From assembly GCA_943736015.1 (NCBI GenBank), contig OX031065.1, positions 43,572,992 through 43,636,991 of the forward strand: 64,000 nt of DNA, read 5' to 3'. Source of the DNA: Tridacna crocea. Lineage: Eukaryota; Mollusca; Bivalvia; Cardiida; Cardiidae. The notes under the pieces were generated by a model. It saw nothing but the letters and a program-made list of their open reading frames with translations. It did no database searches and had not been told where the DNA came from. Below, in pieces: positions 36,350 through 59,225 of this stretch. A program made the position numbers and the translations under genes. How positions within the stretch are numbered: position 1 is the stretch's first letter; each line of letters starts with the position of its first letter.

Positions 36350-36647
36350 ATACAAAATAAGTACACTTTTGTTATAGAATAGTATTGCAGTAAAAAAATT
36401 ATAATTTTCTGTACATTTTTTCAAGCAATACTATTCTATGTTGACTTGGAATTGTATTGCAGGAAATAAAAATCATGTTTTGAGATAGAATATTATGGAA
36501 ATTAAGAATAACTAAAAAAAATTTTTGATTTCAAATCTGAAATTTTGCCAAAACCTGTAATGATAAAAAACATAAATGATAATGACAAAAACCCATTTTT
36601 GGAAAAAAGTGACTTAGCATAGTATTGCATTCAGCAGTCGACCTATC
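36350..36647 (-). repeat. Inverted-repeat arm, right
   Basis: Inverse of 32270-32590: TGACTTAGCATAGTATTGCA then TTCAGCAGTCG at the outer end and several AATAGTATTGC palindromes inside. It ends exactly where a SINE head begins. Confidence 0.65.
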
Positions 36648-36960
36648 TTAGTTGGCTGAGGTCGTAGTGCAGTTGGCAGGGCAGTGGACTGCGAATCATG
36701 GGGTCACGGGTTTGATCCCCTAGCCAGGCCAACATTCTTTCCAACATTCTTTCCAACATTTGACATAGTCATTTGTCTCTCACCAATGGGTGAATAATTG
36801 CCCAACTGGGATGAGCAGGAGGCTCGGATAGGATGTTGTGGTAGTACTGGTTTGAGAAATACCAGGAATCCATGGGTAGGTGCTGTAGCCCATATGACTT
36901 AAATCATGTTGAAAGCTGCATTTAACCCCATACAATCAATCAAACCAACCTGAATCTCCT
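36648..36960 (+). mobile_element. tRNA-derived SINE (SINE-2), full length
   Basis: Head with A box TAGTGCAGTTGG and B-like box GGGTTTGATCCCC (36665-36720), then a GCCAACATTCTTTCC body shared with 25784-26010, and a CAATCAATCAAACC tail. The head folds roughly like a tRNA but is not a functional tRNA gene. Confidence 0.8.
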
Positions 36961-37405
36961 TGTGCATAAAAGCACCAAATAGGACCCAAAAGGCATTATT
37001 CTAACAACTGTTATAAGCGGTCATCAGGTGATGCAACATGCAACATTCAAATATGAAACTGGGTGGTGCAATCATCTTCGCAAACCAAGGCCGATGATTC
37101 ACTAAGTTACTCTACCCTTGGTGGCTTGAGCTTGATTTTTATGTTCACCCGATACACTTTTTCATTGGATGCAGCCAGCTCTAGCTGCAACGAATGAAAC
37201 CGCTCGTAGCATTTAATCTTTGACAAAAATAGAACAAGGTATCTACCTTTCGAAAAAAAGGTAAAACATGGAAACCCATGTGGATGTCTACTTATCGCTT
37301 CATGTGTATTCGTAAGCGGTTTGTAAAACGATTTTGTTTTTAGAAACATGATGTAGCTCTTAGGGGAGTCATAACCAGCATCCAATAGAGGGCGCATGAT
37401 CGCAG

Positions 37406-37611
37406 CCTTACGAACAAAGTCCGTAACAAAGAAACAAATGAATAAATGCATGGCAGAAATAAGGTACCGAGCGGGATTCGAACCCCGAACTCCCGGACGC
37501 AAGGCCAATACCTTAACCACTGAGCCAAAGAGATATCTCCCTGACGCAGTAGCCAGGTATTGTATTTAAATCGGGAGAATGCCATGCAGGAAGGAGTGGT
37601 CTCCCGTAACA
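37406..37611 (-). repeat. TRIM-1 3' LTR
   Basis: 206 bp. By eye it differs from the 5' LTR at the terminal base and two inner positions, so insertion is recent. Contains an A box (complement of 37517-37527) and a B box (complement of 37474-37484). Confidence 0.88.
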
Positions 37612-37709
37612 CACCCCCTCTTAAAGTCATCATTTATTGATGACTCAAAGCCTTATTAGGCAGGAAGTCCGATTTTGGACAACAAATGGGATTAATGGCT
37701 CAATGGCCA

Positions 37710-37727
37710 ATCCCGGACAAGCCCCCA
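37710..37727 (-). promoter_or_regulatory. TRIM-1 primer-binding site, tRNA-Pro type
   Basis: Minus strand TGGGGGCTTGTCCGGGAT, immediately after the 5' LTR. It complements the 3' 18 nt of animal tRNA-Pro with one mismatch. Confidence 0.88.
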
Positions 37728-37933
37728 TCTTACGAACAAAGTCCGTAACAAAGAAACAAATGAATAAATGCATGGCAGAAATAAGGTACCGAGCGGGATT
37801 CGAACCCCGAACTCCCGGACGCAAGGCCAATACCTTAACCACTGAGCCAAAGAGCTATCTCCCTGACGCAGTAGCCAGGTATTGTATTTAAATCGGAAGA
37901 ATGCCATGCAGGAAGGAGTGGTCTCCCGTAACA
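37728..37933 (-). repeat. TRIM-1 5' LTR
   Basis: 206 bp, starts TGTTACGGGAGACC, ends CGTAAGA. Its end is not the usual CA; both TRIM copies share this, so it is a family property. Confidence 0.88.
37796..37849 (-). promoter_or_regulatory. Internal Pol III promoter (A and B boxes) in the TRIM-1 LTR
   Basis: A box TGGCTCAGTGG (complement of 37839-37849) fits TRGYNNARNNG fully; B box GGTTCGAATCC (complement of 37796-37806) fits GGTTCGANTCC fully. Spacing is that of a tRNA gene. The surrounding ~75 nt looks tRNA-like, but the T-stem pairs poorly, so it is a derived module and not a working tRNA. It points in the same direction as the element. Confidence 0.85.
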
Positions 37934-38019
37934 GCAGGAATCTTGAAATCGGGCTCAATCAGCCAAGGTAGTGATCGTAAACTTGGCTCGCGAGGATGTG
38001 GTGCAATATGCAAAAGTGT

Positions 38020-38340
38020 AAATCTCTAGGCCTTTATTTGTCATAGGTTGTTTGAAGATATTACCTTTATTTCAGCCTTTCTGTTACCATGACAACCAGA
38101 GATTTTGACAGAATTTAGAATTTTTTATTTTCATTACATGTATTGTTTTTTTTATAACTTTGCTGTAGCTTCACCAAACGAACATCCCCGTCAAATTTCA
38201 GCTTGATTTGCTCACTGGTTAAGGAGGAGAAAATTTTGAAAGAAAACATAGACAGACAGATGGACAGACAACAGACGATGACTGATCACAATAGCTCACC
38301 TTGCACATAACTCTGCACTTCATGCTCAAGTGAGTTAAAA
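38020..38340 (+). repeat. Pearl-like 3' end fragment
   Basis: TTTACCATGACAACCAGAG-type text, GACAGACAGATGGACAGAC, GATCACAATAGCTCACC and the closing CATGCTCAAGTGAGTTAAAA. Confidence 0.65.
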
Positions 38341-40704
38341 TGGAATGGTCCATTTACACTTCCCTGCAGGCACAAATTTTAACATAAATCATACTCAGTA
38401 GAGTACTTAATTGACAAGGAGGCATTCAAATTATTAATAATTCCTCAAAATCCTTTTAAAAAGCTAACAATCATAAATGGCATGCAAAAGGCACCCGACA
38501 GAACCTCTTCTACACTTTTAAAAGCTGGACATCATACCATGGCCTTACAAGTTCATATGTCTGTGTCGTTTTTAAAACTATTTTTGTTTCTGTTGTTTGA
38601 AGTATTTATATGTCTTCAGTGCATTAAACATTTTGTTTGACAATCTGGTCCACCCGATTTCCATGCACATAAGCATTTTAACGGTTACCTTATCTACTAG
38701 GAAAATCGAGTAATTTATGTGTAAATGCTCTCAAATATTATCTAAGTATCTCACATAATAATAATAACACCAGTATTTGTAGATTCTATCTGAACTTGGT
38801 TAATTTCTATGTTCTTTTCATCCATTGGGCGCTTGCACACTGAGTTTTAACCATTTACAACACATTTGATTGGCTGAAAGCATTCATAGACTGGGAACAT
38901 CATATCAGACTGGGAACATTTGTTTCATGAAAAAGCCTCTCATAATTATTAGATATAAGATCAAACAAAAAAAGTGTCAAAGGGTCGATACAAGGGTGTG
39001 TAGATCTTGTTCAATACTTTCTACTTTGATGAGATAATTTATAAATTCTACTAAAATGAATCCAGTTTTTATGAATTTTGTCTTTAATCAAGTATCATTG
39101 AGTGTTCAAATTCTGTGAGTATCCTTGAACTGGTCACACGGTATTTCAGGTTGTGATGCTTGCCAAATATTTAGATGTGTTTTTGCAACTGAATATCACC
39201 ACAATTCAAGCTTAAAAAAATAACAAGTTGCCAGGGTTACTGGAAACAGAGGCCGTTTTTCTTATTTCCAAATAGCGTCCTAAATCCAAAAATATTGTGG
39301 CCAATTACCATATATGCACGACAATAAGACACATTTTTTCCCTAGAATTTTCAGCTTGAAACACCTACGGGAGCTTCTTATAAGTGCATAATCAAAGGAC
39401 TTTGTGAAATGTGAAATTCCATCTGAAGAATGTACTAACCAGCCAATCAGTAGGAATGAAAAAAAAAACCTCAAGAATGAGTAACGCTGATGTAAAGCCA
39501 TAAGTGACTAAGTAAAAGTTGTTATTATCACCTATTGTGAAGAAATAAAAGTTTAGAACACTCAGTTTTTGTTCTTTACTTGTAAGTTTAGATTGAAAGG
39601 ACAGGTATTTGACTCTAATTCAATACTCTTACTGTTTCAGTTTTAGTCAATCTAAATACGGCCCACTAGTTCACTGTAATATAGATAACCGTATGGTCTA
39701 CTGATTGACCCTTTTTACAATTCTAAAATTCAAAGATGAATCAGTACACTTTTCAAAATCAAATGCATTCAGAAAATTGATCAGTTTTGGCATTGTGACG
39801 ACTTAGAATGATGTAAAAAGACAAGTAACCAAACTGGGGTAAAGATTTCCAAAGCGCAATCAGGGCTGAAAAATAGTGATAGAAATAGCTGGGCCCTTAC
39901 AACAGGAGGGTACGAAGTATACTTGGGCATGTCCAAATTGACCACTGTCCCACCCCACACACACCTCCAAAAAATCCCTTACTGAGTACCATTTCAATTT
40001 ACTTTTGCTCTTAGTGCCTTCAGTTGAAGACAAATATACGTCAGGCACATAGGAAGCATTTACAATTAGCACTGTTATGATGACCAAAACAAAATTTGCA
40101 ATTTCACATATTTCTTTTGTGTGTGTTAGTCAGAGTTGAACAGTTGCATTGTGGGACGAAACCCACGACCAACTTTCAATTTGATGTTCAACGAACCAAC
40201 CCTATCTTTGTTCTTATACTTTCTATCTACCTCTAGTTATGTAGCTCTGTTCTATTTTCTCTCAGCGTTTTCTGTGTCAAATTTGATGACGACCAAGGTT
40301 TAAATATGCATTTTATCGTAAGCTTTTAGCAAAAAGTGCAGACGTTATATTCATAGATTTTAACTGGCTTCACCACTGGCAACTATTACTGATGTCAGGT
40401 AAACTGGGAACCAGGGAAAACTGTTGATATTACAATGACTTAAATAAGTCAATGTCATAGCGTTCTCACACGACCGGTGTACCGAAAAATCTCGAAGTAG
40501 TTCACTTTCACACAAAGATAATCCTAAACAAACAGACTCAAATTTTCATTAGAATTATTACTCTTAATTCAACCCAATTAGTCATTCTGAATTTATTTCT
40601 GGGCATCAGACTTTTTACCATGAAGACTGGGCAGGTCTGACCTCCATTTTGACAGGTCCATCGGACCCTCGCCTTGTTTTTTTCCCCCGGTCCGATCTCC
40701 ATTT
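38341..40704. other. Longest stretch without recognised repeats
   Basis: AT-rich, low in palindromes, no open frame above ~75 codons and no domain I recognise. It may be unique intergenic or intronic DNA. Confidence 0.45.
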
Positions 40705-44578: not shown

Positions 44579-45385
44579 TTTGTTTGTGAGTTTAACGCTG
44601 CTTTTAATAGATTAGGTAAAATCACGGCCAATTAGTACATCTATACATTTGTCTCCTGGCTTCCTCACATCAGTACTGAAACAAGAAAATATTGATGCAT
44701 CACATCAATGGCGCCGCAAATCAATTGTAGGCACATTACAGCATTTTAAATTGACCGAAGTACATTTTTGCAGAACTCAGTGAGAGATGAGCTGGGAAGC
44801 CCTAAACAATCCTTAGAATGCAACTTAAAACTTAAAAAAAGAACCAATAATGGTAAGGCACAATCATACCCATTCTTCGGCGAAATTTAACATCAGTTCA
44901 ATTGGAGCTATGTTCAAAAGCAGTTGTCATTCGAGAAACAACACAAGAACATGGTAAACTAGGTTACCAAATTACCAAACTGATATTAAAAACTGGATAT
45001 GAATTGGTCAAAGTGGGTAAGAAATGATCGAAGTAGGTATGAAATGACCAAAATATAAAAAGAATAGGTGGGTATGCAGTGACAAAAAAATTGTACGAAA
45101 TGGCCTTGGTACGAAATGACCTAGTTACGAAATGACTTGAAGCCGAATAAACAATATGGCTGCCTCCATAGGTACTTCCCAAAAGCGAATAAAAATATAG
45201 TGCCGCCACTCATGCGGCGCCACAATAACTTTCTTTCCAAGCAACATAGTACCTTTCTCACATGCCCCAGAGGTCAGAGGAGGAAAATCGCCGAAAAGGA
45301 AAGTTTGCTGTAACAGAGCATAGGATCCGCAACAACCAGGTTACGAGTCCGATACACTTACCACTGTTCTAACCGGTCGGAGAAA
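44579..45385 (-). mobile_element. SINE-1 copy split by a TIR element
   Basis: Left part 44579-44690 (GTTTAACGCTGCTTTTAATA, CTGGCTTCCTCACATCAGTA) and right part 45225-45385 (CTTTCTTTCCAAGCAACATA, ACGAGTCCGATACACTTACC) align in order to 31582-31839. The gap is filled by 44709-45222. Confidence 0.7.
44709..45222. mobile_element. 514-bp TIR element inside SINE-1
   Basis: TGGCGCCGCA at the left and the exact inverse TGCGGCGCCA at the right, flanked by CAA on both sides (possible 3-bp duplication). Inside, four TACGAAATGACC-like words lie near 45025-45140. No coding capacity; superfamily unclear. Confidence 0.7.
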
Positions 45386-45397
45386 TGAATTATTCCT

Positions 45398-45629
45398 TTA
45401 ACCCTTTCCAAAACAATCCCTGGTTTTTGCGGATCTGGAATAGTAGCCTTTTGAAAACATTGTGGGAAAAGGAGAAAATGCTGGTAACCAGCATTTTCTC
45501 CTTTTTCCACAATGTTTTCTACCCTATTGTAGACGGCAGAAATCATCTTTTCAGCAAGAGTTGAATTGTCGTCCGCAAATGCTTTCAATTTGGTCTGGTC
45601 CAAAAGTTTGTCGTTTGGGAAAGGGTTAA
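45398..45629 (+). mobile_element. Family A TTAA MITE, full length, well kept
   Basis: TTAA at 45398-45401 and 45626-45629; ends CCCTTTCCAAAACAATCCC and GTCGTTTGGGAAAGGG. The core stem at about 45452-45520 is almost perfect. Confidence 0.9.
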
Positions 45630-45689
45630 AACCAGGGGGTTGCCAGTTCGATATACGATTGAGACAAAGTTTCTTTTCAGCGAAGTTTC

Positions 45690-45856
45690 GTCTCTCATCT
45701 CCTATGCATGTGAGGAAAGTATTAAGGGACGTGGAAAGAAAACGGTTTCAGTACTGGTGTGAGAGAGCCAGGAAACGTATGCGTGAGGGCACTGGTCACT
45801 GTGATATGACATTTATAAGCTGCCAAAACGGCGTTAAACTCCGAGACGAAGGAATA
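45690..45856 (+). mobile_element. SINE-1 copy, plus orientation, truncated
   Basis: GGTTTCAGTACTGGTGTGAG, GAGCCAGGAAACG and AAACGGCGTTAAACTCC are the inverse of the other SINE-1 copies. Head missing or eroded. Confidence 0.6.
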
Positions 45857-57301: not shown

Positions 57302-58004
57302 GGATGAAAGTTAAAATTCAGAAACCTAGACTCCACTCGGAGTCAAACCTACAAAAATGTAAAGTGCACTTCTTTAAAGATAAATCTGTACTCGTTTTCA
57401 AGGTTTTTAACCAGTAACACATTTCATCTTAAAGGCGGCCCTTCATATTTTGGACGAAAATTTTACAAAAATATAAACAAATCATCCTTATACTCCAAAA
57501 GCCTTTTAATTTTCATTCATAAAAGCCCAGTAGCTGAAAACTATTCGACAACAAGAGAAATTAGAGATTCAAGACGCCCCAGGTCGACACCGACGGGAAA
57601 CACGGTCTATTTTTACATGACCAACTCGCTCATTTATATACCGGGAATACACAGACGAAGCTTCAAACATAGCATCCGAAGAAGATATTATGGAAAATAA
57701 TTACATGTTTGTTTTGTTACTGAATTTAAGTAAATTTACTCACGTGCCAGTCACTTGACATTCTCACAGTGCTTTTTTTTTAATATTTTGGGTGCGAAAT
57801 CTAACAAGAGGGCCAAGATGGCCGTGGATCGCTCACCTGAATTTTTGAGAGGATCATAGCCTTTTTCTTTAGAGGAATTGAAACATTGGAAACAAAATCA
57901 TTATTTTGCCATGCAATTTTGAAAAGGTCACCTGTAAAATCATTTCAAATTCTGACCATCAGTTTCAGAAAAGAAATTTTTTTAAAGAATTTATGAATTT
58001 CCAT

Positions 58005-58210
58005 TCTTACGAACGAAGTCCGTAACAAAGAAACAAATGAATAAATGCATGGCAGAAATAAGGATCGGAGCGGGATTCGAACTCCGAACTCCCGGACGCA
58101 AAGCCAATACCCTAACCACTGAGCCAAAGAGATATCTCCCTGACGCAGTAGCCAGGTATTGTATTTAAATCGGGAGTATGCCATGCAGGAAGGAGTGGTC
58201 TCCCATAACA
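58005..58210 (-). repeat. TRIM-2 3' LTR
   Basis: 206 bp, TGTTATGGGAGACC start. A box is the complement of 58116-58126; B box (AGTTCGAATCC, one change) is the complement of 58073-58083. The purine tract AAGATGGGG lies just inside on the minus strand. Confidence 0.88.
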
Positions 58211-58309
58211 CACCCCATCTTAAAGTCATCATTTATTGATGACTCAAAGCCTTATTAGGCAGGAAGTCCGATTTTTGGACAACAAATGGGATTAATGGCT
58301 CAATGGCCA

Positions 58310-58327
58310 ATCCCGGACGAGCCCCCA
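58310..58327 (-). promoter_or_regulatory. TRIM-2 primer-binding site, tRNA-Pro type
   Basis: Minus strand TGGGGGCTCGTCCGGGAT, with no spacer after the 5' LTR. It is the exact complement of the 3' 18 nt of animal tRNA-Pro, CCA included. Confidence 0.92.
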
Positions 58328-58533
58328 TCTTACGAACGAAGTCCGTAACAAAGAAACAAATGAATAAATGCATGGCAGAAATAAGGATCGGAGCGGGATT
58401 CGAACTCCGAACTCCCGGACGCAAAGCCAATACCCTAACCACTGAGCCAAAGAGATATCTCCCTGACGCAGTAGCCAGGTATTGTATTTAAATCGGGAGT
58501 ATGCCATGCAGGAAGGAGTGGTCTCCCATAACA
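58328..58533 (-). repeat. TRIM-2 5' LTR
   Basis: 206 bp, same as the 3' LTR by eye. A box complement at 58439-58449, B box complement at 58396-58406, in the sense direction of the element. Confidence 0.88.
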
Positions 58534-59225
58534 CCATATAGTACAAGTAGCCCCCATTCACCTCACCCTATTGAAAAGGGTCACCCATGGAACATTGCTG
58601 TGAAATTATTTTAAAACCTGACCAGGGGTTTCAGAGAAGAAGAATTTTCAAGAATTTCTTCATGTCCGTATAGTGCAAGTAGCCCCCATTCACTAGAGCC
58701 ATGTTTCTTGACGGATCAAAATTTCGCGAACAGCTTTTGAAAAGGGTCAACCAAGGAATATCTCTGTGAAATTATTTCAAAATCTGACCATCCATTTCAG
58801 AGAAGAAGAATTTTTAAGAATTTCTTCATGTCCGTATATTGCAAGAAGCCCCCATTCATCAGGGCCACGTTTCTTGACGGATCAATTTTCGCAAACATTT
58901 TCTTAAAAGGGTCATCCAAGGAACATCTCTGTGAAATTATTTTAAAATCTGGCCAGCGGTTTCAGAGAAGAAGATTTTTAAATAATTTCTTAGAAAATTC
59001 CATTTGGTTGCCATGGCATCCAGAGTTTTTGATGGAATCAAATTCTGTGAAAACGTTTTAAAGAGGACCTCCGAAGGAACATTCCAGTCAAGTTTGGTCC
59101 AAATTGGCCCAGTGGTTTAGGAGGAGTTGATGTTTAAAGAATTGTTGACGACGCACGACTGACGACGAACACCGGCTGATCCTAAAAACTCCACTTGAGC
59201 ACGTTGTGCTCAGGTAAGCTAAAAA

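Follow-up and report, generated by a model that had tools for sequence, protein, structure and literature searches.

The 64,000-nucleotide stretch of Tridacna crocea DNA analyzed here, referred to throughout as the window, carries on its minus strand a non-coding miniature LTR retrotransposon (TRIM) of the Helenus kind, assigned by its features. We consider it probable that, taken as a whole, the life of this element follows an unusual course in which its RNA would be initiated by RNA polymerase III (Pol III) within the LTR, would read through the entire unit and would be mobilized in trans by a Gypsy element that shares its primer binding site (PBS). Three sets of observations extend beyond the published work that our searches located: a likely Gypsy partner together with hybrids joined at the PBS, fold-back insertions resembling strong-stop DNA, and the absence of TTTT from the sense strand of the focal unit.

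The structure of the element was resolved by direct-repeat and structure analysis, and a second full copy is present in the same window. The features of both are as follows.

37406..37933, minus strand: whole TRIM, Helenus kind, 528 bp
37728..37933, minus strand: 5' LTR, 206 bp, TGTTACGG...TTCGTAAGA, its end fixed by 4-bp duplications in 46/49 copies
37885..37892, minus strand: TATA-like motif TTTAAATA, LTR 42-49, 31 bp upstream of the predicted RNA start (putative function)
37852..37861, minus strand: LTR 73-82, fold-back point and predicted RNA 5' end
37839..37849, minus strand: A box motif TGGCTCAGTGG of the 5' LTR, at LTR 85
37796..37806, minus strand: B box motif GGTTCGAATCC of the 5' LTR, at LTR 128
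37710..37727, minus strand: PBS of tRNA-Pro type, also present in the partner element
37612..37727, minus strand: internal domain, 116 bp, with AATAAA and a predicted 9-bp hairpin
37612..37623, minus strand: polypurine tract (PPT) TAAGAGGGGGTG, abutting the 3' LTR
37406..37611, minus strand: 3' LTR, final base G in place of A
37517..37527, minus strand: A box of the 3' LTR
37474..37484, minus strand: B box of the 3' LTR
37402..37405, no strand: target-site duplication GCAG, left
37934..37937, no strand: target-site duplication GCAG, right
58005..58533, minus strand: second full copy, 95.6% identical, B box AGTTCGAATCC, sense strand without TTTT
58001..58004, no strand: target-site duplication CCAT of the second copy, left
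58534..58537, no strand: target-site duplication CCAT of the second copy, right

All of the parts named in a preliminary description of this DNA, namely the 206-bp LTRs, the tRNA-Pro-type PBS, the purine tract, the GCAG duplication and the consensus A and B boxes in the sense direction of each LTR, were recovered at 37933..37406. The direct repeats at 37407-37611 and 37729-37933 share 99% identity, and the paired LTRs mismatch at three of 206 positions, one of which is the final base. LTR 73-82 reads GAGATAGCTC in the focal 5' LTR, whereas the 3' LTR and the majority of sampled copies have GAGATATCTC. The focal PBS, TGGGGGCTTGTCCGGGAT, directly follows the 5' LTR with no spacer; most chromosome-1 PBS sites among those listed have TGGGGGCTCGTCCGGGAT instead, which we take to be complementary to the 3' terminus of animal tRNA-Pro, and the general form within the family is TGGGGGCT(C/T)GTCCGGGAT. 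Both boxes lie on the sense strand of the element with a spacing of 43 bp in the two focal LTRs, and a spacing of about this length resembles that of a tRNA gene. ARAGORN reported no tRNA across the window and Rfam gave no match in 36400-39000, so that the LTR module is best regarded as a promoter-like relic and not as a recognized tRNA gene; the latter identity was rejected on these results and on the folding of the 77-nt module, which was no better than that of shuffled sequences (z -0.43).

A single stop-to-stop frame of at least 110 aa touches the TRIM (37107-37565, 152 aa), running from the 3' LTR into the flank. The window as a whole (1-64000) holds 11 frames of this minimum length, the longest being 190 aa, and the frame at 45358-45747 includes an NPFPNDK... 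stretch that by eye appears repeat-derived. The downstream flanks of the two copies share only 71 bp at 72% identity (38174-38244 and 59071-59141), a stretch that is probably an old repeat of no relation to the TRIM. Whether a related SINE adjoins each copy (at 38207 and 59104, with an 18-bp A-box-like match) was also considered, and these sequences were judged to be unrelated.

Helenus (TRIMp3) was described by Kojima in 2024 (PMC10886601) as a TRIM with tRNA-like A/B-box sequence in its LTRs, a size range of 311-1263 bp and 51 named families in bivalves. The focal element has a length of 528 bp, is non-coding when checked at frames of at least 110 aa, carries A and B boxes in both LTRs, a PBS after the 5' LTR and a PPT before the 3' LTR, is flanked by 4-bp duplications and has its PBS in common with a Gypsy element. 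The correspondence with that account extends to tRNA-like LTRs, PBS, PPT and 4-bp duplications in animals, to tRNA-Pro among the bivalve primers, to tandem arrays in one Helenus family and to the suspicion of a Gypsy helper. The account draws its animal Gypsy link from PBS similarity, whereas here hybrids tie the TRIM to one Gypsy family; its main text mentions no Helenus terminator, and fold-backs were not found there. Our literature search for Helenus or TRIMp3 returned this paper and one meeting report only. The preliminary description had left aside whether the family was known; since the kind was published in 2024, its headline was correct but not new.

Its comparison with the plant Cassandra elements is likewise supported, as a tRNA-like A/B-box module is built into both LTRs. 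Cassandra, too, is a TRIM whose LTRs contain a Pol III promoter, but its module is 5S rRNA and, as stated in PMC10886601, its transcription has been shown and its transcript ends inside the 3' LTR, whereas the focal TRIM has a tRNA-like module and no TTTT inside the element. The biv-TRIM elements (PMC6934838) resemble it in their bivalve hosts, terminal repeats of 202-218 bp and tandem arrays; they are described there with an internal domain of 77-80 bp, the PPT GGGGAGA in most and no clear PBS. By this description the focal TRIM, with 116 bp of internal sequence, the PPT listed above and a clear tRNA-Pro-type PBS, is set apart. Nor does it have the single unit, LINE-type tail and variable long duplications of a tRNA-derived SINE.

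The genome containing the window comprises 1.05 Gb in 31 contigs. The abundance of the element is well above anything that chance would give. Scoring of 40 among 2,059 candidates yielded 42 matches at 98-100% identity, each spanning about 527 bp, and LTR-PBS junctions with at most three mismatches numbered 2,928 genome-wide, with control matches at zero. If each junction represents one element, the TRIM would occupy roughly 0.15% of the genome. The preliminary description had raised the balance between full elements and solo LTRs: LTR 5' ends (at most two mismatches) numbered 5,822, giving only a rough ratio to the 2,928 junctions, and solo LTRs look like a minority. Two overlapping samples of copies were scored. 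One comprised 60 chromosome-1 regions (three further listed sites were left out), four of which lacked a complete element, and yielded 56 complete elements, 50 simple and six tandem; the other yielded 49 complete copies from 78 overlapping loci, 38 of which were best matches or exact PBS matches. The 4-bp duplication first noted as GCAG proved to be general, with exact duplications flanking 52 of the 56 copies (shuffled pairs gave a mean of 1.2 and a maximum of 6) and 46 of the 49. The median divergence between outer LTRs is 1.0%, with no difference at all in 18 of the 56 pairs, which points to recent insertion. Tandem arrays bear exact duplications on their outside in 9/9 and 6/6 cases of the overlapping samples, a pattern that fits either inserted multimers or growth in place.

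Older relatives (L019, L026, L030, L038, L053) have LTR ends, PBS and internal domain in common with the young family; their A and B boxes lie 63-67 bp apart, about 20 bp more than the 43-44 bp of the young family. One locus (L011:40-311) contains head-to-tail repeats, with a 69-bp period, of the tRNA-like LTR segment (42-111). Variants of a palindromic repeat around GGAAAAGGAGAAAATGCTGGTAACCAGCATTTTCTCCTTTTCC, which looks like a MITE, occur in or beside older TRIM copies (L011, L012, L015, L025, L030, L036).

Sites with the same PBS and a preceding base other than A numbered 778, with T preceding in 96 of the 100 listed. Twelve such sites were chosen and fetched, revealing nine copies of a partner element, two TRIMs and one hybrid. 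The partner has a 561-bp LTR (TGTTATGT...TCGTAACA) followed by a 5-nt spacer, the PBS of the TRIM and a gag frame; its LTR contains TATAAAAG at 202 and AATAAA at 494, and a regex search of this LTR found no A or B boxes. Separate searches of its pieces returned a SCAN match, sub-threshold zinc-knuckle matches, an integrase and then reverse transcriptase (RT) and RNase H; in the PDB, the RT piece matched Ty3 best. An integrase domain upstream of a Ty3-like RT is the arrangement reported for Gmr1 (PMC6238403, PMC3587641), and the likeness to Gmr1-type Gypsy elements is one of domain order. Partner LTR 5' ends (at most one mismatch) numbered 1,817 and, among those listed, the starts are often paired at 5.6-5.9 kb; others lie about 9 kb apart. 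The preliminary description had proposed a search for an autonomous LTR element using this primer site and having matching LTR ends. An element of autonomous type with that PBS was found; its LTR agrees with the TRIM LTR at only a few terminal bases, and the internal starts of the two elements share about 21 bp. On the sequence evidence, this Gypsy partner is the likely agent of TRIM mobilization.

At some loci, the R-U5 portion of the TRIM LTR (LTR 73-206) occurs as an inverted pair with its junction at GAGATATCTC. The fold-back center, CCAAAGAGATATCTCTTTGG, has 44 exact sites and 112 sites with at most one mismatch. Fourteen fold-backs, hand-picked along the list, were fetched from the 41 exact sites not previously examined and were combined with L039, L117 and L122 to give a set of 17: nine were scorable, four had an end outside the fetched sequence (L158, L159, L117, L122) and four were decayed and left unscored (L154, L155, L161, L162). 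The TRIM LTR was present in both orientations in all 14 fetched loci, and exact duplications flanked all nine scorable ones. Four are stand-alone hairpins with U5 at both ends and the duplications AGAC, ATCG, CCCA and TTCT. Four fold-backs and L039 run on as PBS, TRIM internal domain and TRIM LTR, with the duplications TTAT, CTTT, ATTA, AGAG and TTTT (the last of low complexity); in L117, L122 and L158, partner sequence follows the PBS.

These palindromic R-U5 insertions look like integrated, self-primed strong-stop DNA. Minus strong-stop DNA would end at the RNA 5' end; were that end at G73, A74 or G75, the cDNA 3' end could pair within GAG-ATAT-CTC and would then copy itself back to the U5 end. 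The strong-stop reading would thus place the RNA start at LTR 73-75, 10-12 nt upstream of the A box, and the fold-back point would mark the TRIM RNA 5' end. We lean, somewhat beyond an even judgment, toward the full sequence of events in which TRIM RNA starts in the 10-bp palindrome, its strong-stop DNA self-primes, and the resulting U3-less hairpin with integrase-ready U5 ends is either inserted alone, as a palindromic, MITE-like unit, or passed on, at the PBS, to cDNA of the TRIM or its partner. The inversion turns where the sequence is palindromic, and it is conceivable, if doubtful, that fold-backs form there on account of the palindrome, where the enzyme pauses, and carry no mark of the RNA 5' end. 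Self-priming nevertheless requires a cDNA 3' end within the palindrome, and in the nine scorable fold-backs the outer inverted end falls precisely on the U5 terminus, as strong-stop DNA predicts. The position also fits a tRNA-type start, which lies 10-12 nt before the A box. A narrow literature search, covering titles and the starts of abstracts, found no report of strong-stop fold-back insertions among the papers listed.

Judged from its sequence, the TRIM is likely to be transcribed by Pol III. The 322 unique bases of the focal unit contain 11 TTT runs and no TTTT on the sense strand, as is expected if Pol III must read through. The proportion of T-runs reaching four is thus 0/11, against 0.41 in the window (P=0.003), 12/26 in the partner's LTR plus leader (P=0.007 versus the focal unit, Fisher test) and 1/3 on the other strand of the unit. 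Absence of TTTT was infrequent in shuffled sequences (P=0.0046 for dinucleotide and 0.028 for trinucleotide shuffles), and only two of 324 overlapping window segments with an equal number of T-runs were free of it; the avoidance was spotted after the fact and is weaker under the stricter null. The sense strand is TTTT-free in 52 of the 56 chromosome-1 copies, and the other strand contains TTTT in 55 of the 56. A universal avoidance was rejected for the older relatives, as 7 of 17 older LTRs have TTTT in the interval separating the A box from the B box. Conservation among young copies is 0.998 for the A box, 0.979 for the B box, 0.984 for U3 and 0.982 for U5, which puts the A box only slightly above the latter two regions and the B box no higher than them; box conservation was discarded as functional proof because the young copies are too alike. 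In the 17 older LTRs the TATA-like motif is kept in six and the A and B boxes in eight each, and this about equal, patchy retention means that conservation lends no support to Pol III. The median distance to the first TTTT beyond the 3' end is 67 nt, against 69 nt to the nearest one upstream, so no terminator is placed by design.

The opposing view is that of an ordinary Pol II TRIM, in which TTTAAATA serves as TATA box and the tRNA-like module is an idle remnant of a SINE. The distance of 31 bp between this motif and the predicted start would suit Pol II as well, the partner LTR appears to be of Pol II type (in the hybrid L158 its first base is position 231, which is 29 nt past the TATAAAAG of that LTR), and the TTTT found in some older relatives points in the same direction. 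However, the LTR has no AATAAA and the sole copy in the element lies in the internal domain, before the 3' LTR, so that a Pol II RNA would be left without a 3' R, whereas a read-through RNA ending in the flank would still have R near its 3' end. Together with the strand-specific depletion of TTTT and the integrity of the A box in 46 of 47 young copies, this makes an ordinary Pol II TRIM unlikely.

Hybrids between the two elements occur at 19 loci, comprising 13 sites at which a TRIM LTR and PBS join the partner leader and eight at which a partner LTR and PBS join the TRIM internal domain; two loci carry both types of join. Seventeen of the 19 were fetched (C8:33406099 and C4:66389416 were left out), and both ends were visible in eight. 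Exact duplications flank six of these (CTTG, ACGT, CCAT, ATGG, ATAT, GAAG) and are lacking in L148 and L123. The C5 hybrid consists of partner LTR, PBS, TRIM internal domain and TRIM LTR with ATGG on both sides, and is the exact prediction of plus-strand transfer between two cDNAs at the shared PBS. The ACGT and CCAT hybrids read TRIM LTR, PBS, partner leader/gag, TRIM internal domain and TRIM LTR; the ATAT hybrid reads TRIM LTR, a piece of partner LTR, PBS, TRIM internal domain and TRIM LTR; the CTTG hybrid is a mixed unit; and in the C17 hybrid (GAAG) a TRIM unit sits at the PBS of a partner element, about 2.4 kb inside this hybrid being unread. A partner LTR was present at the expected 3' position in two of seven hybrids (L140, L144) and was not found at that position in L139, L141, L142, L143 and L145. 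At the position of the common partner's 3' LTR, L139 (C2:4648700-4649950) has a 416-aa open frame with no Pfam match. The L150 hybrid is decayed (73-80% identity), which suggests that the link between TRIM and partner is old. At L119, L121, L124 and L126 (C9, C17, C13 and C18), hybrids directly after a TRIM internal domain lie inside longer mixed arrays.

It could be argued that hybrids and fold-backs arose after integration, by ectopic recombination or gene conversion, or are assembly errors, and are thus uninformative on shared particles. The roughly 21 bp common to both elements at the PBS would be enough for rare crossovers, and the two hybrids without duplications would accord with such an origin. 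A crossover between two loci does not, however, give matching 4-bp duplications, and these are present in the six hybrids, the nine scorable fold-backs and the sampled tandem arrays, and flank the C5 hybrid despite its partner LTR at one end and TRIM LTR at the other. We therefore regard a post-integration origin or an assembly error as very improbable. Complex LTR insertions with intact duplications are known from cereals, where Sabot and Schulman (2007, PMC1950507) explained them by template switching between co-packaged RNAs; the complexes described there involve related elements (Angela, Squiq, Opie) and a switch proposed at R, whereas the present hybrids link two elements whose LTRs are unrelated, the TRIM and its partner, with the join at the PBS, and fold-backs occur in addition. 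That the element is merely a tRNA-derived SINE duplicated by chance around a spacer, as its tRNA-like A and B boxes and its kin with longer tRNA-like modules might suggest and as the preliminary description had allowed for, was refuted by the copy survey and has practically no standing beside 2,928 LTR-PBS junctions and samples dominated by two-LTR copies with PBS, PPT and fixed 4-bp duplications (46/49; 52/56).

Taken together, the probable explanation set out at the beginning would proceed as follows. RNA would begin at LTR 73-75, just upstream of the tRNA-derived A box, most likely via Pol III, would cross the TTTT-free element and would stop on meeting the first T run of the 3' flank. Such a start, combined with such a stop, would place R at both ends of the template without the need for a poly(A) signal in the LTR. 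The partner, a Pol II-type Gypsy encoding gag, integrase, RT and RNase H and using the same tRNA-Pro-type PBS, would package and reverse-transcribe this RNA in trans, and its integrase would insert the TRIM cDNA with 4-bp duplications. We infer that termination takes place at the flanking T run and that partner proteins carry out the packaging, copying and insertion of the TRIM.

Kojima (2024, PMC10886601) left open both Pol III use by Helenus and the identity of the mobilizing element. A single genome now provides a TRIM-helper pair with dozens of hybrid and fold-back insertions, and from it come a prediction of the RNA start to within three bases and the prediction that internal termination is absent. 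Integrated strong-stop hairpins, if confirmed, would represent a class of repeat that may be mistaken for MITEs, and would allow RNA start sites to be read from genome sequence alone. Indeed, should the fold-back reading be true, these loci would constitute an unrecognized class of insertion that records both RNA starts and shared particles, and would depict a Pol III TRIM living inside the particles of a Pol II Gypsy element.
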